Positions 3,531-28,388 of a DNA stretch of 28,388 bases are shown here, one piece after another. The first letter of the stretch is position 1. The number at the start of each line of letters is the position of its first letter. Origin of the DNA: a virus; the IMG/VR virus record IMGVR_UViG_3300049595_002635, positions 1 to 28,388 of that record. One strand, 5' to 3'. The notes beneath the pieces were generated by a model. It was not told the DNA's origin. It searched no databases and saw only the letters and a list, made by a program, of their open reading frames with translations. The position numbers were made by a program, and so were the translations under genes.

Positions 3531-4307
3531 ACCGAATTTCTCGCGGAGAAAATCAATGCATTCTCCGCGCTTATCGCGGTGAATAATACAGGTATCATGG
3601 GTATACACCCAATCAAAGACCCTTGGATTCCACAATGTTGGGTTCGGGATTAGTCCCGCTGGACGCCCATTGCTCCTTGAGTAGAAAATGTTGGGCATCA
3701 TGTGGTTAACTGCATGGGAGAACCAGATAATTTCTGGAGCTATGGCGCAATCAAAAGCCATTTGAGATGTAGCTGGTTTACTGAAGAAATTCGGGCACCA
3801 TGAGACAACATCGGGCGGGTAGATCGCCCCTCCGTTGATGTGGTCAAAACAATCCACCCAAGCCCCCATGAAGGGGCGTTTAGCTTTCTGGTATTCGGCC
3901 TCCAGTCTCGCAACCCAATCAGGTTGGGCTGGGATCATGTCGGTCTCCCAAAGGAGCCAAGGCTTGCCCTGTTCCCTCATAATCTTACAGGTCTCCGCAA
4001 ATGCATGGTTGTTGCAGGCGGGCCACGGCATGTGACACTGAGGAATGTAATGCACCACACATTTCCCAAATCCTTCTCCCGCAAGGTCAACCGCCGCACC
4101 ACAATCCATCCCCTCATCCGTAATGAAGTGGATTTCATTGGGCTGTTTGCCGAGATCCTTGGCCCAATTCAGCACCCGAACAGCTTGCCCGTAGTCGCGG
4201 GAGCAGAAAAGAAACGCCAAATTAAGGGGGGGGGGAGCCCACTTGTAACCCACAGGAGGACGTATACGGCATTCTGGGGCGCGGCGAAACAGGTCAGGAT
4301 TTAGCAT
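3519..4307 (-). CDS. Glycosyltransferase-like protein (paralogue of 24651-25634)
   Basis: 262 residues. The domain seems to begin near residue 28 (LNLAFLFCSRDYGQAV), a typical first strand of a GT-A fold. WETDMIP at 120-126 is an acidic motif of the type that binds metal and nucleotide sugar (ExD in place of DxD), followed by DWVARLEAEY and, later, GGAIYPPDVVSWCPNF. The same blocks occur in the + strand gene at 24651-25634 (WEPDCVP, GWVDDLDAEY, GSAVYPPNFLDFCP), so the two are paralogues of one phage family. It is the last gene of a minus-strand cassette (primase, FkbM, GT, GT) and overlaps the preceding gene by 14 nt. A run of 10 C bases encodes PPP at residues 25-27, just before the domain. 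The sugar donor and acceptor cannot be told. Confidence 0.7.
   Translation of the reverse strand: MLNPDLFRRAPECRIRPPVGYKWAPPPLNLAFLFCSRDYGQAVRVLNWAKDLGKQPNEIHFITDEGMDCGAAVDLAGEGFGKCVVHYIPQCHMPWPACNNHAFAETCKIMREQGKPWLLWETDMIPAQPDWVARLEAEYQKAKRPFMGAWVDCFDHINGGAIYPPDVVSWCPNFFSKPATSQMAFDCAIAPEIIWFSHAVNHMMPNIFYSRSNGRPAGLIPNPTLWNPRVFDWVYTHDTCIIHRDKRGECIDFLREKFGIRK
4226..4235 (-). repeat. 10-C homopolymer inside glycosyltransferase gene
   Basis: Ten consecutive G on the + strand (C on the coding strand) encode PPP plus the first base of the next codon, 24 codons into the glycosyltransferase gene at 3519-4307. It is the longest G/C homopolymer I found in the window. Slippage by one base would put everything after residue ~27 out of frame. 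In bacteria such tracts in surface-glycan genes act as phase-variation switches. Confidence 0.9.
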
Positions 4308-18786: not shown

Positions 18787-19233
18787 TCAAGAGAAAATAA
18801 CGCGAACCTCAGCTTCGTCAAACATTTGGAGGGCGGCTTTGAATGAGTCGGCCCAACGCTCGTAGCTATCCAGATGGGCGTTGAATGGGCAATACACATC
18901 CTTGATTCCAGACTGAATGATAGACGCCGCACAATGGGCACATGGTTGGAATGGCCAGACAAAAAGAGAGTAGTCTTTAAGTGGTTCTTTAGCCGACAAG
19001 ATGGCATTCATCTCGGCATGGATTGTATAGAGGAGTTTAGTATCGCGATTTGAGATACGTTCATGGCAATCCTCCACCCCCCTAGGAAAGCCGTTGAATC
19101 CTACAGATGCTATGGTTCTGTCTGGTCGGACAATGACAGCGCCCACTTGTGAGGAGGGGTCTTTGCTCCATGTGGAGACTTCTTCAGCTAACTTGATAAA
19201 CCGCGCAACCCACTTGTCTTCAATTGTTTTCAT
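18787..19233 (-). CDS. dCMP deaminase (deoxycytidylate deaminase)
   Basis: 148 residues. HAEMNAI (72-78) carries the zinc-binding histidine and catalytic glutamate, and PFQPCAHCA (95-102, C98 and C101) completes the zinc site of the cytidine/deoxycytidylate deaminase family. DPSSQVGAVIV and GFNGFPRGVEDCHER are typical of dCMP deaminases, which turn dCMP into dUMP and feed dTTP synthesis. Phages use it to raise their thymidine pool. ATG 19233 is preferred to the TTG one codon upstream; it lies 14 nt inside the previous gene. Confidence 0.95.
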   Translation of the reverse strand: MKTIEDKWVARFIKLAEEVSTWSKDPSSQVGAVIVRPDRTIASVGFNGFPRGVEDCHERISNRDTKLLYTIHAEMNAILSAKEPLKDYSLFVWPFQPCAHCAASIIQSGIKDVYCPFNAHLDSYERWADSFKAALQMFDEAEVRVIFS

Positions 19234-19483
19234 CAACTTGGAATCCTTTGTTTTCTAGATTCTTAACCATGGAGGAAATCATGGTGGACTTGAGTTTGCG
19301 TTCGTAAGCTTCCTTGCTTCTCCACATCTTGACTTCCGAAATTAGTAGATCAATTGAGATAATCGGGCTCTCTCCTTCAAAGGTCTGATATTCAGCAAGT
19401 AGTTGCTTGATTTCATCAATCTGCGAGCAGGAAGGACACGGGATGTAGTCTTTTCCATTACTTCCGTTGAGTAGATCAATCAT
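19220..19483 (-). CDS. Hypothetical protein with CxxC motif
   Basis: 87 residues. CPSC at 16-19 could bind zinc with further residues. The rest is helical and charged (IDEIKQLLAEYQTF, MWRSKEAYERKLKSTMISSM). The start overlaps the peptidase-like gene by 8 nt (ATGATTGA), and the end overlaps the deaminase. No family recognised. Confidence 0.65.
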   Translation of the reverse strand: MIDLLNGSNGKDYIPCPSCSQIDEIKQLLAEYQTFEGESPIISIDLLISEVKMWRSKEAYERKLKSTMISSMVKNLENKGFQVDENN

Positions 19484-20054
19484 AGTATGGGTCGGTAAGT
19501 TTTGCTGGGGGGAATAGCGCGATGTTTAAGGAAATGATTTTTTCGGGCATTTGGCTCCAAATACGAGTGGTCTCGTAGCTTTTCTTGCACCACTTGCGAT
19601 TGTTGAACATCCAATGGTAGCCCAAGATGTAGGCGTTGGCCATCTGGGCATAGCGTTTAAGATCTACGGGTAGTTTATTACGAGCAAGCTTTCTTACTGA
19701 TCGTTTCTCGCAATCCCATTCCAGTTCAACAACGAGTCGGATATACTTGTCCACATAGTCTACTTTCTTGCCAGCAAGCCATTCATCCAGCTTGCCAAGG
19801 GCATCCTCTCTGACATCATGCCACTTGGGTCTTTGGAGTTGCTGGTCGAGGTGACAGGTCTCATGGACAAAGACATCAAGCCATGTGGATACGGGGCGTT
19901 TGGTGGCTATGCGTAGCTCTTTGTCATCTGCCCACCCTACAGAGGTGGCCTTGCCCGTGATGAGATACTTTTGAGGAACAAACGAAAGCTTGAATTGGCG
20001 GTATTTAAGAATAGACCGCCCCAGAAAGTTGATTGTTGCCTGATCCATCGTCAC
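19476..20054 (-). CDS. Zinc metallopeptidase-like protein (HExxH)
   Basis: 192 residues from GTG 20054, which overlaps the preceding stop as GTGA; an ATG two codons on is possible. FVHETCHLDQ (62-71) is an HExxH site (H64, E65, H68). A third ligand may be one of the acids in LVVELEWDCEKRS (E110, E112, E116), about 45 residues on, as in minimal gluzincin or SprT-like enzymes. WADDKELRIATKRPVSTWLD before it fits the strand that precedes the active-site helix. The C-terminal part is basic and tryptophan-rich. Many tailed phages carry such a protein near replication genes; the substrate is not known. Confidence 0.7.
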   Translation of the reverse strand: MTMDQATINFLGRSILKYRQFKLSFVPQKYLITGKATSVGWADDKELRIATKRPVSTWLDVFVHETCHLDQQLQRPKWHDVREDALGKLDEWLAGKKVDYVDKYIRLVVELEWDCEKRSVRKLARNKLPVDLKRYAQMANAYILGYHWMFNNRKWCKKSYETTRIWSQMPEKIISLNIALFPPAKLTDPYYD

Positions 20055-20203
20055 TCTTCTTCGACATCGGTTTCCTCAACTTGTTCAAACAGTCTTCTGA
20101 TAGGATTGTCGCAAAAGCCTTCTTCTTGTTCTGGGAACGGCATCAGAACACCCGTGTCATCGTAGGCGACTTTTAGATCATCATCAAACTGCTTTTGATT
20201 CAC
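20051..20203 (-). CDS. Small acidic protein
   Basis: 50 residues from GTG 20203 to TGA 20051 (NQKQFDDDLKVAYDDTGVLM...DVEEE). Very acidic. It fills the gap between the resolvase-like and peptidase-like genes, overlapping the first by 20 nt and the second by 4 nt (GTGA). No family recognised. Confidence 0.6.
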   Translation of the reverse strand: MNQKQFDDDLKVAYDDTGVLMPFPEQEEGFCDNPIRRLFEQVEETDVEEE

Positions 20204-20564
20204 GGAACAACTCTATAATCGTCTCTTCTTTTTGACGAGTTTTTTCTTGTTTAGTTTCAATAGTGACATCTTCCGCACGGTCATCTGGAATTGCTCCAGC
20301 ATATCGGAGGCAGTCAATGAAGTATTTGAAAACGAGATTGTCTGGGTCAATAAGTCGTTTCCTTCTTGCCGTAAGGCGGATGTGAATGCGTCCTGTATTT
20401 TCTTTTTTGCCGCCGCCCTTCGCCAGTGGTTCATTGCGAACAGCGCGTTTAGGCTTGGCGTTACTGCTGGCACTCTTACGGTCAAGAAAGGTTCGTTGGA
20501 TTGTGTCGATTCGCTCATAGACTCCTTTGCTCACTTCCACATAGCCTGCGGGTATTTCTTTCAT
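20184..20564 (-). CDS. RusA-like Holliday junction resolvase
   Basis: 126 residues. RLIDPDNLVFKYFIDCLRYA (70-89) and GAIPDDRAEDVTIETKQEK are the RusA core: D73, D75, N76, K80, D84 and the DD at 94-95 correspond to the acidic metal site and lysine of the DxDN...K...D...GxIxDD pattern. RusA dimers cut four-way junctions, and phages use them to clear recombination intermediates before packaging. The N-terminal ~55 residues (ERIDTIQRTFLDRKSASSNA, basic) are extra compared with the ~120-residue family in that they begin with a non-RusA stretch. Start ATG 20564, coupled by ATGA to the previous gene. Confidence 0.8.
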   Translation of the reverse strand: MKEIPAGYVEVSKGVYERIDTIQRTFLDRKSASSNAKPKRAVRNEPLAKGGGKKENTGRIHIRLTARRKRLIDPDNLVFKYFIDCLRYAGAIPDDRAEDVTIETKQEKTRQKEETIIELFRESKAV

Positions 20565-20758
20565 TGCTCAAGCAATACTTCCTCTTTAAGTCTTTCGGCT
20601 TCGGGGTCGGGGGCGATGCACATCATCAGTGCTTGGCGGGCCTTCTCCAATTGCCTTTCTTTCTGCTCTAGCAGAGCCTCCAAGATCCCCGAAACGGGAG
20701 GAGGATTTATTGTAGAATGAATGCGTCCCACCGTCATTTGTAGGTGTTCTACAGTCAC
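20561..20758 (-). CDS. Small helical hypothetical protein
   Basis: 65 residues from GTG 20758, overlapping the previous stop as GTGA. The C-terminal two thirds is a long charged helix (GILEALLEQKERQLEKARQA) with a second helix after PDPEAERL, likely a coiled coil. Placed between an HTH protein and the resolvase; no family recognised. Confidence 0.6.
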   Translation of the reverse strand: MTVEHLQMTVGRIHSTINPPPVSGILEALLEQKERQLEKARQALMMCIAPDPEAERLKEEVLLEQ

Positions 20759-21084
20759 TTAATGATTCCTTCTTGACGAGCGATGGCCTCAATCTGGCTC
20801 ACATACTCGCGGGTACAATTGAATGCTTCGGCAACGGCAGTGAAGTTGGTTTCGGGGTTGTTCATAATAAAGCCCAAAATCTTGAAAGACCTTCCCCCGT
20901 TGTACAGACGCCTCTTGGTGGTCTTCTTGCGCCTTGCCCGAATGCCAGTCCGCTTCAGCGCCGAAGCCATAGCATGGTAGCTTGCTCCGTGTTTTACGGC
21001 CAGTTCACCAATGGTGATTTCGGGGTTTTCCTGAATTTCAGTAGGTAGAGTAGATGTGTTGATCATATAATTATGTGTTGACAT
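20755..21084 (-). CDS. Helix-turn-helix DNA-binding protein
   Basis: 109 residues with two helix-turn-helix-like units. The first is ITIGELAVKHGASYHAMASA (24-43), followed by a basic stretch (RTGIRARRKKTTKRRLYNGG). The second is TNFTAVAEAFNCTREYVSQI (79-98). It is preceded by a palindrome (21074-21090) over its own start, so it may regulate itself. It sits at the head of the long minus-strand cluster and next to the structured-RNA interval, so it is a candidate regulator of either. The target is not known. Confidence 0.7.
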   Translation of the reverse strand: MSTHNYMINTSTLPTEIQENPEITIGELAVKHGASYHAMASALKRTGIRARRKKTTKRRLYNGGRSFKILGFIMNNPETNFTAVAEAFNCTREYVSQIEAIARQEGIIK

Positions 21085-21090
21085 TACACA
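21074..21090. promoter_or_regulatory. Operator-like inverted repeat over the HTH gene start
   Basis: TGTGT (21074-21078) and ACACA (21086-21090) form a perfect inverted repeat with a 7 nt spacer. It covers the start codon of the HTH gene at 21084. A dimeric repressor bound here would block this gene. The AT palindrome AAATATTAATATTT (21114-21127) lies 24 bp away. Confidence 0.35.
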
Positions 21091-21118
21091 GTAGATGGGC
21101 TTTAATCCCTGTCAAATA

Positions 21119-21403
21119 TTAATATTTAGGGGGCGTTGGAACTTTCCGTTTCCGCGCCCTCTGTGGTTTACGGGCCTTTCTCTGTTCCTTGTGGAACAAT
21201 TTGTGGCACACCTTGCAAAGGCAGATCAGGTCATCCAGATGGTTGAGTTCATCCCCTTGGTGTTCGTAGGTGCGGTGGTGGGCCTGAAGTTCTAGCGGGC
21301 TATTGCAAACCCCACACCTCCACCCGAACCGCTTCTTCACCAGTCGGCTTACTTCCCTCCAGTAAGGGGTGTGCAAGTAGGCTTTGTAGGATTCTTTATC
21401 CAC
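21119..21403 (-). CDS. HNH endonuclease
   Basis: 94 residues from GTG 21403. The zinc and active-site pattern is complete: WRCGVC (C30, C33), LQAHHRTYEH with the catalytic histidine pair (H42, H43), LNHLDDLICLCKVCHKLFH (N54, C63, C66, H71), then a basic tail (KEQRKARKPQRARKRKV). It is of the short free-standing kind common near terminase genes or as a homing nuclease. It is the first gene of the minus-strand cluster, right next to the structured-RNA interval. Confidence 0.88.
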   Translation of the reverse strand: MDKESYKAYLHTPYWREVSRLVKKRFGWRCGVCNSPLELQAHHRTYEHQGDELNHLDDLICLCKVCHKLFHKEQRKARKPQRARKRKVPTPPKY

Positions 21404-21423
21404 AGAAAGATCTTACTCTCTTG

Positions 21424-21452
21424 TTGACAGAGTGGCCACTCTTAGTTATTTT
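21424..21452 (+). promoter_or_regulatory. Sigma-70-like promoter with a 14 bp palindromic operator in the spacer
   Basis: TTGACA (21424-21429), 17 nt, then TATTTT (21447-21452): a perfect -35 box at ideal spacing with a fair -10 box. The spacer holds AGAGTGGCCACTCT (21429-21442), a perfect 14 bp palindrome, exactly where a repressor would block RNA polymerase. It points rightward into the gene-free interval with the RNA helices. Inferred, but three independent signs agree. Confidence 0.55.
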
Positions 21453-21458
21453 GGCGTT

Positions 21459-21546
21459 CGTTTGCATAGTTCTGGGTGCGGTTCCGTTTGCGGTGTCTTA
21501 TCGTTGACTTTGTTTCGGGGCCGCACCCTCTCTTTTTTTGATTGAC
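21459..21546 (+). ncRNA. Putative short RNA ending in a helix plus T-tract
   Basis: Starting about 7 nt after the putative -10 box, the RNA would contain GGGTGCGG (21474-21481) pairing with CCGCACCC (21531-21538), 8 perfect base pairs, with CCG-TTTG-CGG (21484-21493) inside. TCTCTTTTTTT follows at once, as in an intrinsic terminator. This would be a ~85 nt RNA, or a leader/attenuator before the larger RNA. There is no coding frame of note. Confidence 0.45.
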
Positions 21547-21548
21547 TC

Positions 21549-21990
21549 TTGTTTGAACGTTTTGTAGGGTCGCGGTGTCAACGACATGACAGGCACCGTA
21601 AAGTGGGCGTGAAATATGCCACTAGAACCTGTGACGAGGTATGCAAGGGTAAAACCGCCGCACTCACAGTTAGCCATCCGTCCCATTGCTTGATCTTATT
21701 GCGGCGTGGGAATCCAGAAAAACTCTGGTAAGCGCGAGGGATAATACCCTCGGAGGTTGATTGCGATTGTTTGAAGGTCTATTAGCGGCTTCGGAGCCTA
21801 GATCGTGATCTGTGGAATAAAGCGGAGGACTCACTCACAAGGAATGAGCCGATCCATTTTGACCATGCCTTTGCCCCTGCGGGGGCGAGGTGTGGTCATT
21901 CGGTAGGATCTAGCTCAAAGGAATTAATCAATCCTATAGGCGGGCGACTGGCTCCTAGCCCGCCGTTTGGGAGTGTTTCCGAAATTTTAA
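21549..21990 (+). ncRNA. Structured RNA, domain A of a putative giant phage RNA
   Basis: Gene-free but dense in helices. The clearest is 21847-21917: GAGC/GCTC, GATCC/GGATC, GACCA/TGGTC, CCT/AGG and GCCCC/GGGGC stack around a TGCG loop, with small symmetric internal loops, about 22 bp in all. Others are CGCCGCA (21657-21663) with TGCGGCG (21701-21707), ACAGG (21590-21594) with CCTGT (21629-21633) enclosing AGTGG/CCACT, CCAGA/TCTGG (21715-21729), CGAGGG/CCCTCG (21736-21753), GGTCTA/TAGATC (21777-21805) with GGCT/AGCC inside, and GGCGGGC/GCCCGCC (21939-21964). They are nested without serious conflict. Strand is + by the promoter and T-tracts. The class is unknown; giant ornate phage RNAs (GOLLD, ROOL) are the natural comparison. 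Confidence 0.55.
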
Positions 21991-22080
21991 AAACCCATTT
22001 AACAGAGTAAAACCATGATTTGGTTACGCAGATATGGAGGATAATACATAAAATATGTATCCCTTAAAAAAACATTGAAC

Positions 22081-22577
22081 GCCCCGAAGGGGCTATGGTC
22101 TATGTATCTATGAACAACTTTGCGGGATGCATTGAGGGTGCCACTGTGAACACGGGGGCAAGCGACCTGAAATCCCGCAATTCCGAACGTTTCGATGCGC
22201 GTCTCCATGGCGCGGGAATAAACGATGAGGAAAATGCTGGGCAGCGTAGCAATACTGGAGCCACCGTATGGTGGACTCCGTGGTCGGGAGGACTCCAAGG
22301 TTTATTTGCCCGTGTAGAGCTAAAATCTACACCCCACTGGAGCCGTAACCATGGGAACCCGTGCGCTGAAAAGTGGATGCATACTCGTCCCCAGCAAATT
22401 TTTTCTAGCAGGAGCAGGATGGGTAAGCGTGAGTCCGATGCTCATGTGAGGGGTGCAGCCGTGGCCCAGCGTCTGCATTCCGCTATTTTTGGAGGCGGGG
22501 AGACTCGGCATGAAAATGCGAAGGCTTCAAAGGCTGGGGGGTCGATGAAGTCGCGCCACCCCGCTTCCAATCTTTTT
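22081..22577 (+). ncRNA. Structured RNA, domain B of a putative giant phage RNA
   Basis: Further nested helices on the + strand. GCCCC/GGGGC (22081-22093). GCGGGAT (22122-22128) with ATCCCGC (22172-22178), enclosing TGCC...GGCA and GTG-AA-CAC. CGTTT/AAACG (about 22188-22224) enclosing GCGC/GCGC. GGAG-CCACC-GTAT-GGTGG-A-CTCC (22257-22279). GTGTAGA/TCTACAC (22312-22332). CCACT/AGTGG (22335-22375) enclosing CATGGG-AA-CCCGTG. GCAT-GAAA-ATGC (about 22508-22519), a GNRA-capped hairpin. Finally GGAGGCGGGG (22491-22500) with CCCCGCTTCC (22559-22568). An open frame crosses part of this stretch, but its protein does not look real. Whether A and B are one RNA of ~1.1 kb or two cannot be told. Confidence 0.5.
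22491..22577 (+). terminator. Terminator-like closing helix and T-tract before a start codon
   Basis: GGAGGCGGGG (22491-22500) and CCCCGCTTCC (22559-22568) pair over 10 bp with one G-U, followed by AATCTTTTT (22569-22577), then the ATG of the secreted protein. A 3' end here would separate the RNA from the gene. Read-through would put the gene under the RNA's control. Confidence 0.45.
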
Positions 22578-22862
22578 ATGAAAAAACTACTACTACTACT
22601 ACCACTGTTACTGAGTAATACCCTTGCCCAAGATGGATCGTTCAATGGGACGGTCTATGATTTGGATTCGGGGCGGATACAGGTTATTAGCGGGTCTGTG
22701 GATATCAAACCCAAAGAGGACACATATCTTTCGACTCTTCGCCGTATTAATGCGGAGTTGGCGGAGTCAAACGCACGATTGGATGCGGAGATTACAGCCA
22801 GCCGTCAGCTTTACGAGTTGCGCCGTCAAACGAGGCTTCTTGAAGAAATTGCCAACAAATGA
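22578..22862 (+). CDS. Secreted/periplasmic protein with signal peptide and coiled coil
   Basis: 94 residues from ATG 22578. MKKLLLLLPLLLSNTLAQDG is a classic Sec signal peptide with a likely cut after LAQ or TLA. A short beta-like region follows (FNGTVYDLDSGRIQVISGSV), then a long charged helix (LRRINAELAESNARLDAEIT...) to the end, a coiled coil. It could be a spanin-like or envelope-associated protein; the neighbouring lipoprotein at 23479 makes a pair worth considering. The frame is open upstream for 160 codons, but that part overlaps RNA helices and looks non-protein. No Shine-Dalgarno motif; the TGA overlaps the next ATG by 4 nt. Confidence 0.7.
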   Translation: MKKLLLLLPLLLSNTLAQDGSFNGTVYDLDSGRIQVISGSVDIKPKEDTYLSTLRRINAELAESNARLDAEITASRQLYELRRQTRLLEEIANK

Positions 22863-23509
22863 GCAACTATCTTAACGTTAATATCCCCACATTCTTTGCT
22901 TTTGTAGACGAGGGGTTCTTCTACGATCTTGAACCCTGTGTTAGTAGGGAGAGACAGCTAGTCGAGGTATTTGCCTTCACCTCCATCCCCCAACGGTGTG
23001 GGTTGTTTAGCGTGATGACCGAATACGGAAGCCAGCATGCCCGTGTCCCGATCCATTACCTCCATGCAGAGGATACAGGAGGATCGTCTTACCCGCTAGA
23101 TTGGATACAGCTATGGGATTCCATGAGCTACTATTGCTCGGTTAATATCTTGGACTACTGCAAGAATAGGGCGGCAAATATCATGCTTAAGAATAAGTCT
23201 TTTGAAAAAGCAAAGTATATGTTCACCTTGGACTGGTGTTTCGGCCCCCACTATACCTCTGGCTACGGCGAGATGGCGGCTGGGCATAAGTGCGGACATG
23301 TATTGGTTGGAGAGGGTGGTCAATATTTTTTACAACCTAACAACCGTGTATTGTGGATGGACGGTGGGTCGTTTATTGCCAAACAGTTTCCCATGAAGCC
23401 CGACTGGAGGGTGTTTAGCCAAGAGTTTAGCTGCGAGCATACAGGCAGCAGATGGGTTAGCGAAAGCGAGGAGGAGCTATGGTTCTACGACTTCAAAGAG
23501 CAGGGATAG
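22859..23509 (+). CDS. Conserved hypothetical phage protein
   Basis: 216 residues. MTEYGSQHARVPIHYLHAED, YPLDWIQLWDSMSYYCSVNI, KYMFTLDWCFGP, GHKCGHVLVGEGGQYFLQPN and NRVLWMDGGSFIAKQ follow blocks I know from uncharacterised proteins in many environmental phages (TEYGxxxARxPIHxLR...LDxLQLWDxxSY...KCGHxxxLxxGxxxxQPNNR). Some resemblance to beta-rich or jelly-roll folds is possible. Its ATG overlaps the previous stop as ATGA. The function is unknown. Confidence 0.8.
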   Translation: MSNYLNVNIPTFFAFVDEGFFYDLEPCVSRERQLVEVFAFTSIPQRCGLFSVMTEYGSQHARVPIHYLHAEDTGGSSYPLDWIQLWDSMSYYCSVNILDYCKNRAANIMLKNKSFEKAKYMFTLDWCFGPHYTSGYGEMAAGHKCGHVLVGEGGQYFLQPNNRVLWMDGGSFIAKQFPMKPDWRVFSQEFSCEHTGSRWVSESEEELWFYDFKEQG

Positions 23510-23769
23510 TAATCGCACTACTTGTTACAAGTGGTTGTGTTTCTTGTCCACCCCGCCCCTATCCTTGGAACTTCCCCCCAGAACATGAATGGAACGCGCC
23601 ATTGGAGACTAGTTGGGTAAATGCTGTTGACGCCTTCCGCAACTGGACAGCCCCCAAAGGTAAGATCTGGAACCCGCTTATTCGGCAGTATGAGCCTGAC
23701 TTTGGCTATGAGATTGAGCTTTTGAAGGCTCTTCCGCCAGATACTGAGGAACATGAACTGTATCAATAA
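23479..23769 (+). CDS. Small lipoprotein
   Basis: 96 residues. The N-terminus is a lipoprotein signal peptide: MVLRLQRAGIVIALLVTSGC, with lipobox LVTSGC and the cysteine at 20, followed by VSCPPRPYPW. The mature part is proline- and tryptophan-rich with an acidic end (DTEEHELYQ). AGGAGGAG stands 4 nt before the ATG. It overlaps the previous gene by 31 nt. A short proline-rich lipoprotein next to a secreted coiled-coil protein recalls the outer- and inner-membrane parts of spanins, but order and sizes differ from the classical case. The last ~90 nt overlap the HNH gene on the other strand. Confidence 0.7.
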   Translation: MVLRLQRAGIVIALLVTSGCVSCPPRPYPWNFPPEHEWNAPLETSWVNAVDAFRNWTAPKGKIWNPLIRQYEPDFGYEIELLKALPPDTEEHELYQ

Positions 23770-24064
23770 TCCAACCTTGCTTGCGGGCTTCCCGCCCGTT
23801 AGCGTGGCACCAATCATGGCACAATCGGCAAAGCGCGGCAAAAAGACTGTAGTCACAAAGATAGCGACCAACCCTGCCCGCCTTATGATGGATATCTTGA
23901 CTCTTCGCCTTCTTACATTTCTCGCATACGGGATGCAGTGCCAAGTAGGCTTTTTTTACCTTTGTATACTCATTGTACTCACGCTGGCGTTTGGGGGATG
24001 CGCTCCGCAACCTTCCGCTGCGCTTAAGTGGGGTTTTTGAACGAAGTGGAGTTTTTCTTGTCAT
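23678..24064 (-). CDS. HNH endonuclease, free-standing
   Basis: 128 residues from ATG 24064. The N-terminus is basic (MTRKTPLRSKTPLKRSGRLR...). HPVCEKCKKAKSQDIHHKAG (C47, C50, HH at 59-60) and LCRLCHDWCHANGREARKQG (C79, C82, H83, H87) match the small phage HNH proteins with CxxC...HHxxGR...LCxxCHxWxHxN. It lies alone on the minus strand inside a + strand cluster, tail to tail with the lipoprotein gene (92 nt overlap) and 7 nt from the divergent gene at 24072, which looks like a later insertion. The C-terminal tail (SKAQSHSQSQAHTAE) is low-complexity. Confidence 0.82.
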   Translation of the reverse strand: MTRKTPLRSKTPLKRSGRLRSASPKRQREYNEYTKVKKAYLALHPVCEKCKKAKSQDIHHKAGRVGRYLCDYSLFAALCRLCHDWCHANGREARKQGWIIDTVHVPQYLAEEPSKAQSHSQSQAHTAE

Positions 24065-24071
24065 ACCTACT

Positions 24072-24260
24072 ATGATCACTTGGAACGATTACAATAATAC
24101 AAAACCTGATACAGAGGGAATCTACCTCATCAAAAACGATGAGTCAAACCCTCCATTGAAGTGGGCCTGCCACTACCATCCCCACCATGGATGGAGTGGG
24201 ATTGGACATATCCTTGAACGTGTGATTAAGTATTGGAGTCCATGGCCCGATTCAAAGTAG
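24072..24260 (+). CDS. Small DUF551-like protein
   Basis: 62 residues from ATG 24072 (MITWNDYNNTKPDTEGIYLI). The layout of W...P...GxYLxK..., a middle strand region with W (HPHHGWSGIGH) and the ending VIKYWSPWPDSK recalls DUF551 (start W, GxYLV, end VTHWMPLP). DUF551 proteins are small phage and bacterial proteins of unknown function. The match is by eye. Confidence 0.65.
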   Translation: MITWNDYNNTKPDTEGIYLIKNDESNPPLKWACHYHPHHGWSGIGHILERVIKYWSPWPDSK

Positions 24261-24466
24261 TCCTAACCGTAATCAATGAAGACTCCGTCTCCCCATTCGT
24301 GGTTGGCCCACGGTTCCGTCGAGGAACCCCCATGCCAATGGAAGCGTTGTTCGCTGAACGTGGTGGTTACTTCTTTGACCCAGAATCAGAAATCGAGATG
24401 GCCAGAGATTGCGCCGAATCCTTTCAAAAATACATCAATCAATCAGAGAAAAAAAAGAAAAAATGA
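24242..24466 (+). CDS. Small hypothetical protein
   Basis: 74 residues from ATG 24242 (MARFKVVLTVINEDSVSPFV), overlapping the preceding gene by 19 nt. Beta-like first, then helical (ESEIEMARDCAESFQKYINQ), with a lysine tail (SEKKKKK). No family recognised. Confidence 0.65.
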   Translation: MARFKVVLTVINEDSVSPFVVGPRFRRGTPMPMEALFAERGGYFFDPESEIEMARDCAESFQKYINQSEKKKKK

Positions 24467-24654
24467 GCGAAAGTAATAAAACTTACATTGTGTGCCACGG
24501 AGAAAAAATTGTGGAACTGGACAGGTTTGGCATGAGTAAAGAGGAGGCCAACCAAGAAGCCCAAAGACTCATGGCCCATGGCTACAAAAATGTCAGGGTG
24601 CGTCTGGAAGACCCCCTCCATCCTAGCTGGCCTCTTAACTTCGACGCGCAGTGA
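24463..24654 (+). CDS. Small hypothetical protein
   Basis: 63 residues from ATG 24463, ATGA overlap with the previous gene (MSESNKTYIVCHGEKIVELD...). YIVCHGEKIVELDRFG, then a helix (SKEEANQEAQRLMAHGYKNV) and VRVRLEDPLHP: the beta-alpha-beta order is that of a small fold seen in many phage proteins of unknown function. Confidence 0.65.
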   Translation: MSESNKTYIVCHGEKIVELDRFGMSKEEANQEAQRLMAHGYKNVRVRLEDPLHPSWPLNFDAQ

Positions 24655-25634
24655 ATATCGTCTTCGCCTACCACAACGGAGACGCTGATCTGGCTATGGA
24701 GTCGGCCAAGGCTATTACGGCTTTTGGTATCAACATGCGACATAAAGCCACTTTATGCTGTACGAAGGATACATTAAACACCAATTCGATTATCCAAGAA
24801 CTAAAGAAATCGTTTCCCGAAGTTGACCAGATAACAGCACAGGACGGGTTTAGTGGCTGGCCGCTTGGCCCGAACCAGATGTTCAGTGATGTGGCTGCTG
24901 CCATGTATTCAACCAACGCTCCGTTCTACTTCTGGGAGCCAGACTGCGTCCCCATGAAAGAAGGGTGGGTGGATGATTTGGATGCCGAATATCACAGAAA
25001 GGTCGGCATCATGGGCCACCTCTACGAAGGAGGTATGGCATGCAATGGAAAGAATATTTACAAGATGATTGTGGGTAGTGCGGTGTATCCGCCTAATTTT
25101 CTAGACTTTTGTCCTTCCGCGCAGTCCTTATCAACCTACAACTTGGCTTACAAGAATGCAGGAACGATCCCTGAACCATGGGATGTAAGGTGCCGTTGGA
25201 ACTTTATGGCTATCGGTCGGGACACTCCGCTAATCAGAACCTACTGGAAGAGCGTAAACTACCAGTGGAGGGATGGGAAGATTGTTTTCTACGCTGAAGA
25301 CCCCGAAGCCCAAGCGGTTCAGGGTGTTACTTGCCCAGACCGAATCATCTCCAGCCAAGCTGTAGTCATCCACGGGTGTAAAGACGGATCGCTCCACAAA
25401 ATGGCACAAGATGGGTTTCCAATGCCGTCAGATTCGACGGGCTTAGAGCAAAGCGTCAGCAATGATACACAAGTGGTGACAGTTTGCGATAAAGCCCCAG
25501 AAGTGGTGCGTAAACCGCCCAAAAAAGCCAAGAAAAAGCGGGTAATCTCGGAAGTAGAGCGCGAACGCCGTAGGCAATCGATGATGGCGATTTTGCAAAG
25601 AAAGCGTGAACGAAAGGCCCAAGAGGCTGTCTAA
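24651..25634 (+). CDS. Glycosyltransferase-like protein (paralogue of 3519-4307)
   Basis: 327 residues from GTG 24651, overlapping the previous stop as GTGA. MNIVFAYHNGDADLAMESAK opens a GT-A-like fold; PFYFWEPDCVPMKEGWVDDL (91-110) holds the acidic ExD motif, then GSAVYPPNFLDFCPSAQSLS and, later, ISSQAVVIHGCKDGS. The WExD, YPP and CP blocks match the minus-strand protein at 3519-4307. The last ~45 residues are very basic (KPPKKAKKKRVISEVERERR, then QSMMAILQRKRERKAQ), a nucleic-acid- or envelope-binding tail that the paralogue lacks. It stands directly before DnaB. Substrate unknown; DNA, virion or host glycan are all possible. Confidence 0.7.
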   Translation: MNIVFAYHNGDADLAMESAKAITAFGINMRHKATLCCTKDTLNTNSIIQELKKSFPEVDQITAQDGFSGWPLGPNQMFSDVAAAMYSTNAPFYFWEPDCVPMKEGWVDDLDAEYHRKVGIMGHLYEGGMACNGKNIYKMIVGSAVYPPNFLDFCPSAQSLSTYNLAYKNAGTIPEPWDVRCRWNFMAIGRDTPLIRTYWKSVNYQWRDGKIVFYAEDPEAQAVQGVTCPDRIISSQAVVIHGCKDGSLHKMAQDGFPMPSDSTGLEQSVSNDTQVVTVCDKAPEVVRKPPKKAKKKRVISEVERERRRQSMMAILQRKRERKAQEAV

Positions 25635-25642
25635 CGCTTCCT

Positions 25643-26947
25643 ATGCAAGAAGTCATCTTTGAACCATCCGCCGAAACCGCCATCCTTTCCTGCCTCTGCC
25701 ATGCCCCGTCAGAGGATCAGCGTGAGATCCTTTTATCCATAAAGGAAGATCATTTTTACCTTCAGGAGAACAAGATCATCTTTCGGGCGGTCATGCGCTG
25801 TATCGCCAAGGGGATGCAGGCAGACATCATTAATGTCAAAGGAGAGATCGAAGCTGCCAACGAATACGATATCGTCGGTGGTGAACAAAAGATTACAGAA
25901 GTTGCAACTTCATGTGTAGCCCATAACAACTGGAAACGCTACTACCCCAAGCTGGAAGAAGCCCGCTACAGAAGGTCGTTGGAATACTTGGCCAACGACA
26001 TGGTTCACAAGGCCAGAGACCGCGAGCTAAAGATCGAAGAACTCAAGAACTGGTCGGAAACCACCGTGATGAGGGCCGACTACGAGATGGATGACGGCAG
26101 CAAGCTTTCCATCAACAATGCCTTGGATCGCGCTGCCCAAAACATCGAATCCACGATTGCTGGAAAACCTTGTATCGGTATTCGCACTGGCATTACCCCA
26201 CTGGATGACCTTCTTATGTTTGGCCTGCGTGGCGGAGATATGGTTGTTTTGGCTGCGAGACCAGCAGTTGGAAAGACGGCCAGCGCCCTTCAGATTGCCG
26301 AGAACGTGGCGCTTAACCAGAAGAAGCGAGTCTTGATCTTCTCGCTTGAGATGACAAGCGTTGCTCTAATGGAGCGCATGATCCGCTCGCGGGCGCGTGT
26401 GGGTGCTGCTGACATTCTATCTGGTCGGGTGACCCCGCATCAAAAACAATCTCTCGGACGGGCTGTTCAGGAAATCCAAGCATCCGAAATCATTTGCGAC
26501 GATAGCTCGGCCAAATCTATCGGCTATCTCAAGGCGGTAGCTCGCCGCGCCCATCAGCGCACACCGCTAGATCTCATCATCATTGACTACCTTCAGTTGG
26601 TCAAGGGCGATAGCAAGCGCGGAAAAGACAATCGCGTGTGCGAAGTGGAGGAGATTAGCGGTGGCATCAAGGATCTGGCCAAGACCCTCAAGGTTCCTGT
26701 TCTAGTGCTGGCTCAACTCAATCGCGACCCAGACAAGCGTGGAGGACGCCCCAGTCTTTCAGATCTCAAGGGATCGGGAGCTATTGAGCAGGACTCGGAT
26801 ATCGTTATTATGCTCCATAGCGAGGACTCACAAGATCACGGTCAAAACCCCGCAATGGAATTCATTGTAGGCAAGCATCGGGATGGGCCAACTGGTGTGG
26901 CCAATATGAGCTTCAATAAAGCAATTACCCGATTTGAGGCGGCGTAG
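25643..26947 (+). CDS. dnaB: Replicative DNA helicase, DnaB type
   Basis: 434 residues. The N-terminal domain (about 1-130) has EPSAETAILSCLCH and the helical fold that binds primase. The RecA-like motor begins with IRTGITPLDDLLMFGLRGGD (180-199). Walker A is AARPAVGKTA (204-213), SLEMTSVALMERM is motif H1a, LIIIDYLQLV (311-320) is Walker B, VPVLVLAQLNRD (351-362) is H3 and SDLKGSGAIEQDSDIVIM (373-390) is H4. It unwinds the fork as a hexamer and should load or activate the phage DnaG-type primase at 5638-7230. The length is normal. The ATG at 25643 is 8 nt after the previous stop. It overlaps the convergent gene by 23 nt. Confidence 0.96.
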   Translation: MQEVIFEPSAETAILSCLCHAPSEDQREILLSIKEDHFYLQENKIIFRAVMRCIAKGMQADIINVKGEIEAANEYDIVGGEQKITEVATSCVAHNNWKRYYPKLEEARYRRSLEYLANDMVHKARDRELKIEELKNWSETTVMRADYEMDDGSKLSINNALDRAAQNIESTIAGKPCIGIRTGITPLDDLLMFGLRGGDMVVLAARPAVGKTASALQIAENVALNQKKRVLIFSLEMTSVALMERMIRSRARVGAADILSGRVTPHQKQSLGRAVQEIQASEIICDDSSAKSIGYLKAVARRAHQRTPLDLIIIDYLQLVKGDSKRGKDNRVCEVEEISGGIKDLAKTLKVPVLVLAQLNRDPDKRGGRPSLSDLKGSGAIEQDSDIVIMLHSEDSQDHGQNPAMEFIVGKHRDGPTGVANMSFNKAITRFEAA

Positions 26948-27527
26948 CCTTCCAGCAATGGGAAGGAAACTCAAGTCCATCGCTACCCTGAACGTCAACT
27001 GGAAGGTGGACGCTCACGGCGTTATAACATCCGCAAACACCGCAAGCCTTGAGTTGTTGGTCGTAAGAGGTGGTCTTGGCTCCCGCGATTTGCGGAAGCA
27101 TCCCAGCAATACCCTTACACCCCCAACAGCCAGAGGTGGCGATTTGATACGGGCAGGCCGCACAAATTTTAGCTCGCCGTTCAGCTTCCTCCTGATCGAC
27201 TAGCTGAAACTTGTTTTCTCTGGCAAAGTGGTACATGGCTCGCACCCAGCGGACAATCTGAGCAAACCCCAAAGTTTGTTTGGCTTTGGTGCAAGGAATA
27301 CAATTTGTATTCCCAGCAAGTCGGTCACAAAGACTGTGTTCTATTTGTGACACAAAATCCACTGGAGGAACAATTCCTTTGGAGTGGAGAAGTTTTTCAC
27401 AATTACCAACCATGTCCCAAAAATCTCCACCATAGACATTTTCTTCGACTATTGGACACTTCACCCACCAACCCCGTGGAGGGACATCTGTTTTGCGGGG
27501 ATAGCAAAATTTAGGGCTATCACTCAT
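26925..27527 (-). CDS. Cysteine-rich zinc-ribbon-like phage protein
   Basis: 200 residues. Cysteines cluster as LCDRLAGNTNCIPCTKAKQT, then RAKICAACPYQIATSGCWGC and LKACGVCGCYNAVSVHLPVD. The ACxxCPYQ...CWGC and ACGxCGC...xVHLP blocks are zinc-ribbon-like and occur in uncharacterised proteins of environmental phages near the terminase or portal genes. In between, IVRWVRAMYHFARENKFQLV is a helix. The start lies 8 nt inside the terminase-like gene (ATGAGTGA). The function is unknown; a DNA- or virion-associated scaffold is possible. Confidence 0.72.
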   Translation of the reverse strand: MSDSPKFCYPRKTDVPPRGWWVKCPIVEENVYGGDFWDMVGNCEKLLHSKGIVPPVDFVSQIEHSLCDRLAGNTNCIPCTKAKQTLGFAQIVRWVRAMYHFARENKFQLVDQEEAERRAKICAACPYQIATSGCWGCKGIAGMLPQIAGAKTTSYDQQLKACGVCGCYNAVSVHLPVDVQGSDGLEFPSHCWKATPPQIG

Positions 27528-28290
27528 TGAGAACTAGCTCCGCTTCGTAGGTATTATTTTCTGGAATTTTCATGGATTCTAGCTTGGTAGCAATATTGAT
27601 CTGAATGGCATTCTGCTGGTTGACGCCTTCTGAAAAGTTAATGGCGGCAGCTTCGGCCAGTTGTTTGATATTCCTCATCATCCCAAGAGCCTCCATTCCA
27701 TCAAGGTCTTGCGCGGCATCGGCAGCTTTAACCAACACCTTACCAGTTAGAAACTTGATCGATTTCTTCATGGTCTCCAATGAAGCCGTGATTTCTGACA
27801 TCAAACTTGGAACTCCATCATCTTCCCAAGGGGCTGGGGCTGATTCGTTAACTAGGCGTTCTCTGCATTGGAGCCAACGCTGGGTATCCCGCCATAGACA
27901 GACGGTGGATTCGCTAACTTTCAGTTCCTCGGCAATATCCCGCAAGGTACGCCCTGAACAATACATAGAGAATCCCTTGATGCATTCCATTCTCCGCTTC
28001 TTATCCATCTCCTCCATCTTGGCGGGAGGAACTACTAGTGCTACGGGACGCTCTTTATCCCAAGGATAGAGGTTTTCTGCTTCGGGATTTTCCTGCCAGA
28101 TCTTGACGTACTCGTCCCACTTCTCGCTATAGATCAGCTTTTCCAGAGTTGGTTTATGCTTTGTTTCCAACGCTTTCATTACCTCTGGCAATCCTCTCCC
28201 AGCGGCGTAGAGCCTAAATGCGTTCTGTTTTTTAATGCGGTTTTCTGGCGTATCCCAATCCCGCTCTCCGCTCTTGCGCTTTTTCTCCAT
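27520..28290 (-). CDS. Probable small terminase subunit / HTH protein
   Basis: 256 residues. Two parts look like helix-turn-helix: the N-terminal KKQNAFRLYAAGRGLPEVMK (with LETKHKPTLEKLIYSEKWDE) and MYCSGRTLRDIAEELKVSES followed by TVCLWRDTQRWLQCRERLV (about 107-145). A helical C-terminal half follows (SEITASLETMKKSIKFLTGK..., GMMRNIKQLAEAAAINFSEG). DNA-recognition HTH plus a helical oligomerisation part is what small terminases have, and the HTH pattern (DIAEELxVSESTVxxWR) is typical. It is placed with packaging genes by inference; the large subunit is not in the window. Confidence 0.65.
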   Translation of the reverse strand: MEKKRKSGERDWDTPENRIKKQNAFRLYAAGRGLPEVMKALETKHKPTLEKLIYSEKWDEYVKIWQENPEAENLYPWDKERPVALVVPPAKMEEMDKKRRMECIKGFSMYCSGRTLRDIAEELKVSESTVCLWRDTQRWLQCRERLVNESAPAPWEDDGVPSLMSEITASLETMKKSIKFLTGKVLVKAADAAQDLDGMEALGMMRNIKQLAEAAAINFSEGVNQQNAIQINIATKLESMKIPENNTYEAELVLNE

Positions 28291-28318
28291 TCGGATTAGT
28301 TTAGTATAAATTTCATAA

Positions 28319-28388
28319 ATGGCAACAGTTGATCAAGGGATAGAGAAATACGGGAGGTTGTGGTTACCCAAAGACGGACAGGCAATTA
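28319..28388 (+). CDS. Start of a gene that leaves the window
   Basis: ATG at 28319 opens 23 codons (MATVDQGIEKYGRLWLPKDG...) without a stop up to the window edge. It is divergent from the terminase-like gene, 28 nt away, with TATAAAT (28305-28311) between them as a possible -10 box. The product cannot be told from this much. Confidence 0.55.
   Translation, partial: MATVDQGIEKYGRLWLPKDGQAI

Follow-up and report, generated by a model that had tools for sequence, protein, structure and literature searches.

The c4 antisense RNA of phages P1 and P7, a 77 nt RNA (PMC12197685, PMC8546580), is together with IsrK among the systems closest in logic to the locus analysed here. c4 is a short phage RNA with complementary sequences in its loops, and the differences between its P1 and P7 forms give type-specific immunity, or heteroimmunity (PMC12197685). 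IsrK, from prophage Gifsy-1, is a terminated short RNA; read-through gives a longer RNA, on which the short form acts in trans via downstream complementarity on the same strand (PMC4825925). In the ColE1 RNA I/RNA II system, the loops of a short RNA are complementary to hairpins at the 5' end of its longer, structured partner, and diversified loop pairs define compatibility groups (PMC9458437). GOLLD and ROOL, whose function is unknown, are large, structured RNAs of phages and are often found near tRNA genes (PMC12286853).

Only a few phage antisense RNAs, c4 and IsrK among them, co-evolve with a target encoded on their own strand, and those targets are mRNAs. Here we describe a locus in the whole of a 28,388-base record from an uncultured virus (IMGVR_UViG_3300049595_002635, hereafter the window), in which the apparent target of a predicted small RNA, RNA1, is itself a conserved structured RNA, RNA2, that is absent from Rfam and occurs in dozens of environmental phage contigs. 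We propose, with a probability of roughly 0.6, that RNA1 is a terminated small RNA of ~75-80 nt, made from its own promoter, that pairs with the 5' hairpin of RNA2, the two being separate transcripts.

Relatives of the locus

Among annotated phage records no close DNA relative of the window was found, and all relatives used here are metagenome contigs. The neighbouring protein encoded at 22859-23506 retrieved 80 loci in viral contigs, many of which share the region; the sequence motif of RNA2 at 21636-21658 retrieved 45 contigs, and a composite RNA1 pattern, which took the place of an unspecific scan with a 14-base RNA1-promoter pattern, retrieved 30. One more distant case, L045, was recognised solely by a covariance model of the RNA2 core. 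The RNA2 motif also matched two bacterial genomes (L126 and L127). The flanking RNA is absent from both, an 18-base pattern is expected to give such matches by chance, and they were therefore not used to assign a host. Neither the window nor its relatives matched an RNA family in Rfam at the gathering score; the only hits were tRNA-like or due to chance, and a permissive scan gave unrelated chance-level matches only.

The RNA1 promoter and the palindrome in its spacer

The first-pass annotation of this DNA had described a repressible promoter with a palindromic operator in its spacer. The boxes are present as described: TTGACA (21424-21429, + strand) is separated by 17 nt from TATTTT (21447-21452, + strand), with a start expected at ~21459. 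This is the top-scoring of 14 promoter-like sites in 19000-28388 (10 out of 12). About 9.6 sites scoring at least 9 out of 12 would be expected there by chance, so the box match alone is weak evidence. What lifts the site beyond chance is conservation. All 17 distinct upstream variants keep the pattern TTGAC[A/T], 16-17 nt, TA[TC]T[TC]T, with TTGACA or TTGACT as the -35 box and TACTCT or TATTCT as the -10 box of relatives, while their spacers have diverged and belong to three or more unrelated types (GAGTRGCCACTCTTAGT-like, CTCTACAACACTGGCGT-like and CTGTGCAACTCCAGTG); the hairpin and T-run described below are kept as well, in 24 hairpin variants. At the level of sequence, boxes kept over diverged spacers have the look of a used promoter, and their conservation backs the reading of a sigma-70-type promoter pointing right, toward the RNA interval. 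In the diverged RNA1 copies of L053, L060, L067 and L045, no RNA1 promoter could be confidently identified.

The palindrome fared differently. AGAGTGGCCACTCT (21429-21442) is indeed perfect over 14 bp; its first base is the last of the -35 box, so that it does not lie strictly between the boxes. Among the upstream variants it is confined to the lineage of the window (the window and L088), and at its position the relatives carry GAGTAGCCACTC, GGGTAGCCACTC, GAGTGGCTACCC or GTGTGGCCACCC, or the unrelated spacers CTCTACAACACTGGCGT and CTGTGCAACTCCAGTG. The comparison with relatives that had been suggested as a check therefore gave a divided answer, boxes kept and palindrome lost, and it speaks against a palindromic operator; no conserved operator was found. 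The palindrome is probably incidental. That an HTH protein represses the promoter through AGAGTGGCCACTCT, giving a small RNA or an attenuator, is very improbable, despite the presence of the palindrome, the conserved promoter and the linked HTH gene. Many of the upstream variants in which the palindrome is not kept have an HTH protein ~90% or more identical, and chance alone should give palindromes of such length in the window (4 perfect 14-mers vs 1.7 expected). Nor does the HTH gene (20755-21084, - strand) lie just left of the promoter, as had been assumed: an HNH endonuclease gene (21119-21403, - strand), divergent from RNA1, is the immediate left neighbour and separates the two. The HTH gene is next to RNA2 in nearly every locus with sufficient upstream DNA, and RNA2 is its conserved link.

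The HNH gene itself is found beside RNA1 in all loci of the three main promoter types for which the flank is present. It is absent beside RNA1 in L053, L060 and L067 and in the loci that have RNA2 only, a distribution which suggests that it is a mobile passenger.

A conserved terminator hairpin at the predicted end of RNA1

RNA1 is predicted to extend from an approximate, inferred start at 21459 to 21539 (+ strand). Its central feature is a hairpin, S1 (21474-21528), in which 21474-21486 pairs with 21516-21528. The stem consists of 13 pairs, G-U included, around an 8-bp core (GGGTGCGG/CCGCACCC), and the whole hairpin has a computed energy of about -32 kcal/mol. The helix of the earlier annotation is thereby borne out, its length of 8 bp is not. 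S1 is followed directly by the T-run TCTCTTTTTTT (21529-21539), which places the expected 3' end near 21537-21539 rather than at 21546 as first given. All 24 hairpin variants have a stem of 12-14 bp, a hairpin energy between -27.6 and -32.6 kcal/mol, and then 67-92% T over 12 nt, with T-runs that differ in length and sequence. The stem itself is altered on both sides in the diverged copies, reading GGGCGGGG/CCCCGCC[C/T] in L053, L060 and L067 and GGGGCGGGG.../...CTCGCCCC in L045. The built-in terminator scan missed S1 because it permits loops of 8 nt or less only.

The locus thus has what an intrinsically terminated small RNA is expected to have, namely promoter boxes at 16-18 nt spacing and a G+C-rich stem directly before a U-tract, the latter in 24/24 variants. 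The prediction that this promoter is followed by a short, intrinsically terminated RNA is accordingly supported.

The RNA1 loop is complementary to the start of RNA2

The ~22-nt loop of RNA1 (21487-21508) is complementary to the start of RNA2 (21577-21602), and in the window the two segments can form helices of 12 and 8 pairs. The first loop strand, S2b (TTTGCGGTGTCT, 21487-21498), pairs with AGGCACCGTAAA (21591-21602), and the second, S2a (TCGTTGAC, 21501-21508), pairs with GTCAACGA (21577-21584); GTCAACGA ... AGGCACCGTAAA together form the target arm, all on the + strand. The DNA 3' of the T-run reads GATTGACTCTTGTTTGAACG..., then GTCAACGACATGACAGGCACCGTAAA. Taken alone, the pair of the window is unremarkable, with a gapped score of 34.6 vs a shuffle mean of 24.0 and a maximum of 38.0, and the complementarity, which the first-pass annotation does not mention, is convincing only through comparison of sequences with those of relatives.

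In that comparison, loop and arm change together. The series of loop/arm pairs includes GTTGAC/GTCAAC, CCAGAC/GTCTGG, ATCAAGAC/GTCTTGAT, CTAAGAC/GTCTTAG, AGCTGAC/GTCAGCT and TTCATCAC/GTGATGAA, among others, and in the second helix loop and arm likewise co-change between relatives. Over both helices the pairs are TTGCGGCTGTC/GACAGCCGTAA and TTCCAGAC/GTCTGGAA in L010, TGAGCGGATGTTT/AGACATCCGCTCA and TCTATCAAGAC/GTCTTGATAGA in L028, AGGCTGG/CCAGCCT and TTGTCTAAGAC/GTCTTAGACAG in L053, and TGGGTTCTGG/CCAGAACCCG and TTCATCAC/GTGATGAA in L060.

As RNAduplex energies separated cognate from related types poorly, helix and alignment scores with permutations were used; a gapped score was added since a simple two-helix score missed the bulged helices of L061 and L062. 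For 14 loop/arm types the cognate scores sum to 525.9, vs a mean of 360.7 (sd 21.3) and a maximum of 467.7 in re-pairings, so that none of 20,000 reached the cognate value; the types are related, which makes this a strong result and not a clean or exact probability. A different scoring gave 240.5 for the cognate set vs a permuted maximum of 215. The cognate partner is the best match for 10/14 loops and 9/14 arms, and several representatives prefer a non-cognate one. L045 provided an out-of-sample case: its RNA1 hairpin, T-run and loop are as predicted, and the loop pairs with its own arm over 9 + 14 bp (TGAGCGGGT/ACCCGCTCA and TTGGGTAAGACTTT/GAAGTCTTACCCAA), with a score of 22.5 vs a maximum of 17.5 in 5,000 shuffles, none of which reached it. 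Together these results indicate that RNA1 and RNA2 probably act by pairing.

An inverted repeat in RNA is also an inverted repeat in DNA, and part of this one overlaps a promoter-like element, as it might if the complementarity were a protein-binding or recombination site instead of an RNA pairing. We give this explanation next to no weight. The sequence of the repeat varies freely while its complementarity is kept, the opposite of what a fixed protein site would show, and the remaining features of the locus, a terminator and a structured RNA2, are of an RNA type.

Loop/arm types differ between phages whose RNA2 cores are otherwise very similar, and within each phage loop and arm match. It is conceivable, and in our estimate distinctly unlikely, that RNA1 and RNA2 form a recognition pair made of RNA only, in which each RNA1 would act on RNA2 of its own type alone, giving immunity or incompatibility groups coded in RNA. 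If true, such groups would be built around an undescribed structured phage RNA. The matched, diversified types allow a direct test of whether recognition follows the loop, and a swap of types would also give a first handle on the role of RNA2.

RNA2 is a structured RNA that also occurs without RNA1

RNA2 has a structured non-coding core of ~380 nt (21577-21965, + strand, ends approximate). In an alignment of 21 sequences running from the arm to ~21965, 28 of the 52 predicted pairs show at least one compensatory change, and the interval 21459-22092 folds better than shuffled sequences (z -4.0). RNA2 also contains invariant motifs such as AGGTATGCAAGG, although this one had itself served as a search handle. 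At its 5' end the fold places a hairpin, P1 (GCGGUGUC/GGCACCGU, 21572-21599), of which 6-8 of 8 pairs are kept in relatives. P1 holds the target of RNA1, which consists of its loop and its 3' strand; the 5' strand of P1 is near-copied in RNA1. In L006, L007, L010 and L042, the RNA1 strand pairs with the arm at 8/8 positions vs 6-7/8 for the strand of P1 itself.

Directly 3' of the terminator lies a candidate second promoter, TTGACT-17-TAGGGT (21542-21570, + strand). It is overlapped by TTTGAAC (21552-21558) with GTC 18 nt on, an arrangement that resembles the phage promoter motif described below. TTTGAAC and GTC are kept in all aligned RNA2 loci, and TTGACT and TAGnnT in most. RNA2 without RNA1 was found in L044, the L048 type, L064, L083, L105 and L116/L121; TTTGAAC with GTC 17-18 nt on is present in all of these, as are TTGACT and TAGnnT except in L044 and L083. 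A search of the available DNA of these RNA2-only loci for a partner elsewhere gave only chance matches of 9-11 bases. By its distribution RNA1 is a separable partner of RNA2, since RNA2 occurs in several phages without it, and RNA2 likely has a promoter or promoters of its own. The choice of start matters for P1: from the TTGAAC-type element (3' of GTC, 21577), as the phage motif predicts, a transcript would exclude the S2a target and the 5' strand of P1, a point against the pairing model favoured below, whereas from TTGACT-TAGnnT it would largely include both.

The motif TTGAAC-N17-GTC[T/A]A[T/A], usually with an ATG 6-10 nt downstream, is itself widespread, with 45 occurrences in 245 kb of these loci vs 0.4 in shuffles. 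In whole contigs it is far above a reversed control, and copies in the window lie at 22075-22103 (+ strand) and 17438-17410 (- strand). Given this excess, it is probably a phage-wide promoter; it resembles promoters of the ECF type. A search of 12 contigs for a corresponding phage sigma factor gave no Sigma70_r2 match, and Sigma70_r4_2 gave sub-threshold matches only, that of the window falling in a terminase-small-subunit-like protein.

Two RNAs or one

We favour a model in which a host-type promoter would make the short RNA1 (~21459-21539), ended by its intrinsic terminator, whose loop would offer ~20-22 nt to the hairpin at the 5' end of the same-strand RNA2, with which it would form two adjacent helices. 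Pairing could begin at the loop of P1 (through S2a) and then displace the 5' strand of P1 (through S2b), a course suggested by the near-copy of that strand in RNA1. Through this pairing RNA1 would govern how RNA2 folds, how stable it is or how available it is. Promoter-box conservation, terminator form, RNA2 structure and the covarying loop-arm complementarity were computed; from these we infer separate transcripts, pairing in trans, the order of the pairing steps and the regulatory outcome.

Loop-arm pairing would look identical within a single read-through RNA. The main rival, which we regard as rather unlikely, is accordingly one long RNA from the RNA1 promoter through RNA2, in which loop and arm meet in cis, whether in a pseudoknot or through an intramolecular contact between loops, as part of the architecture of RNA2. 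Only ~70 nt separate loop from arm on their common strand and the two covary without exception, which fits such a contact, and in L028, L045 and L067 the P1 stem seems to reach into TAGG and so to include bases upstream of the RNA2 start expected from the TAGnnT box. On the other hand, each variant has a T-rich tract directly after a 12-14-bp stem, with the length variation typical of terminators, RNA2 without the RNA1 segment keeps promoter-like boxes of its own, and two helices totalling ~20 bp inside one hairpin loop would be sterically demanding, though conceivable, in a single chain. The conserved terminator and the likely promoter(s) of RNA2 favour two RNAs. RNA1 could possibly also be an attenuator whose read-through yields RNA2, as proposed in the first-pass annotation; this would not be the sole source of RNA2, which exists in phages without RNA1.

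Other elements of the region

Several further elements were observed in the same region. A repeated stem motif is present at ~22110-22165 of the window and, in tandem, at ~1380-1520 of L116, with conserved internal strands AUUGAGGG and AGCGACCUGA and covarying stems GCGGGA/UCCCGC and CUACGG/CCGUAG. It lies just 3' of the promoter-like motif at 22075 and overlaps an open frame, so it may represent RNA or peptide. Downstream of RNA2, L048 (~4195-4260) and the matching place in L064 carry a tRNA/tmRNA-like sequence, GGGGGAGAGA..TGGATTCGACG...CGGTTTCGAT(C)ACCGACTCCTCCA, for which ARAGORN made no call. Within a conserved end block at ~22485-22582, the window reads GGAGGCGGGG...CCCCGCTTCC and then AATCTTTTT just before an ATG at 22578; this element (22491-22577) may be the terminator of a second non-coding segment. 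Cassette variation is also seen, with ~310 bp at 22171-22484 missing in L004-like loci and ~310 bp inserted near 22582 in L012, L017, L027 and L029.

Comparison with known systems

RNA2 shares with GOLLD and ROOL the proximity to tRNA genes, as tRNA-Met genes adjoin its locus in L044 and L060. Its core is ~380 nt, and the Rfam covariance models of GOLLD and ROOL gave no match, permissive E-values included.

RNA1 resembles c4 in being a short phage RNA with complementary sequences in a loop. The c4 gene directly precedes that of its target, on the same strand, and the pairing between the two RNAs involves two separate segments, as would that of RNA1. c4 is processed from the transcript of its own target; RNA1 instead has a predicted promoter and terminator. 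The same-strand, downstream complementarity of the c4 family is found here, and a match to a described RNA family in Rfam is not. c4 blocks translation of the ant mRNA, whereas the apparent target of RNA1 is the 5' end of a structured, non-coding RNA that shows compensatory changes. This is not the ribosome-binding region of an antirepressor mRNA, and no recognised gene begins there. IsrK likewise differs in its outcome, switching on translation of an mRNA (orf45-anrP), while RNA2 shows no evident coding function and is found without RNA1 as well.

The diversity of the RNA1 loops recalls the compatibility groups of ColE1. The two systems differ in that RNA I is transcribed from the strand opposite to RNA II, whereas RNA1 and RNA2 both lie on the + strand. 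In ColE1, complementarity follows automatically from the opposite strands; that between RNA1 and RNA2 must be kept by co-evolution.
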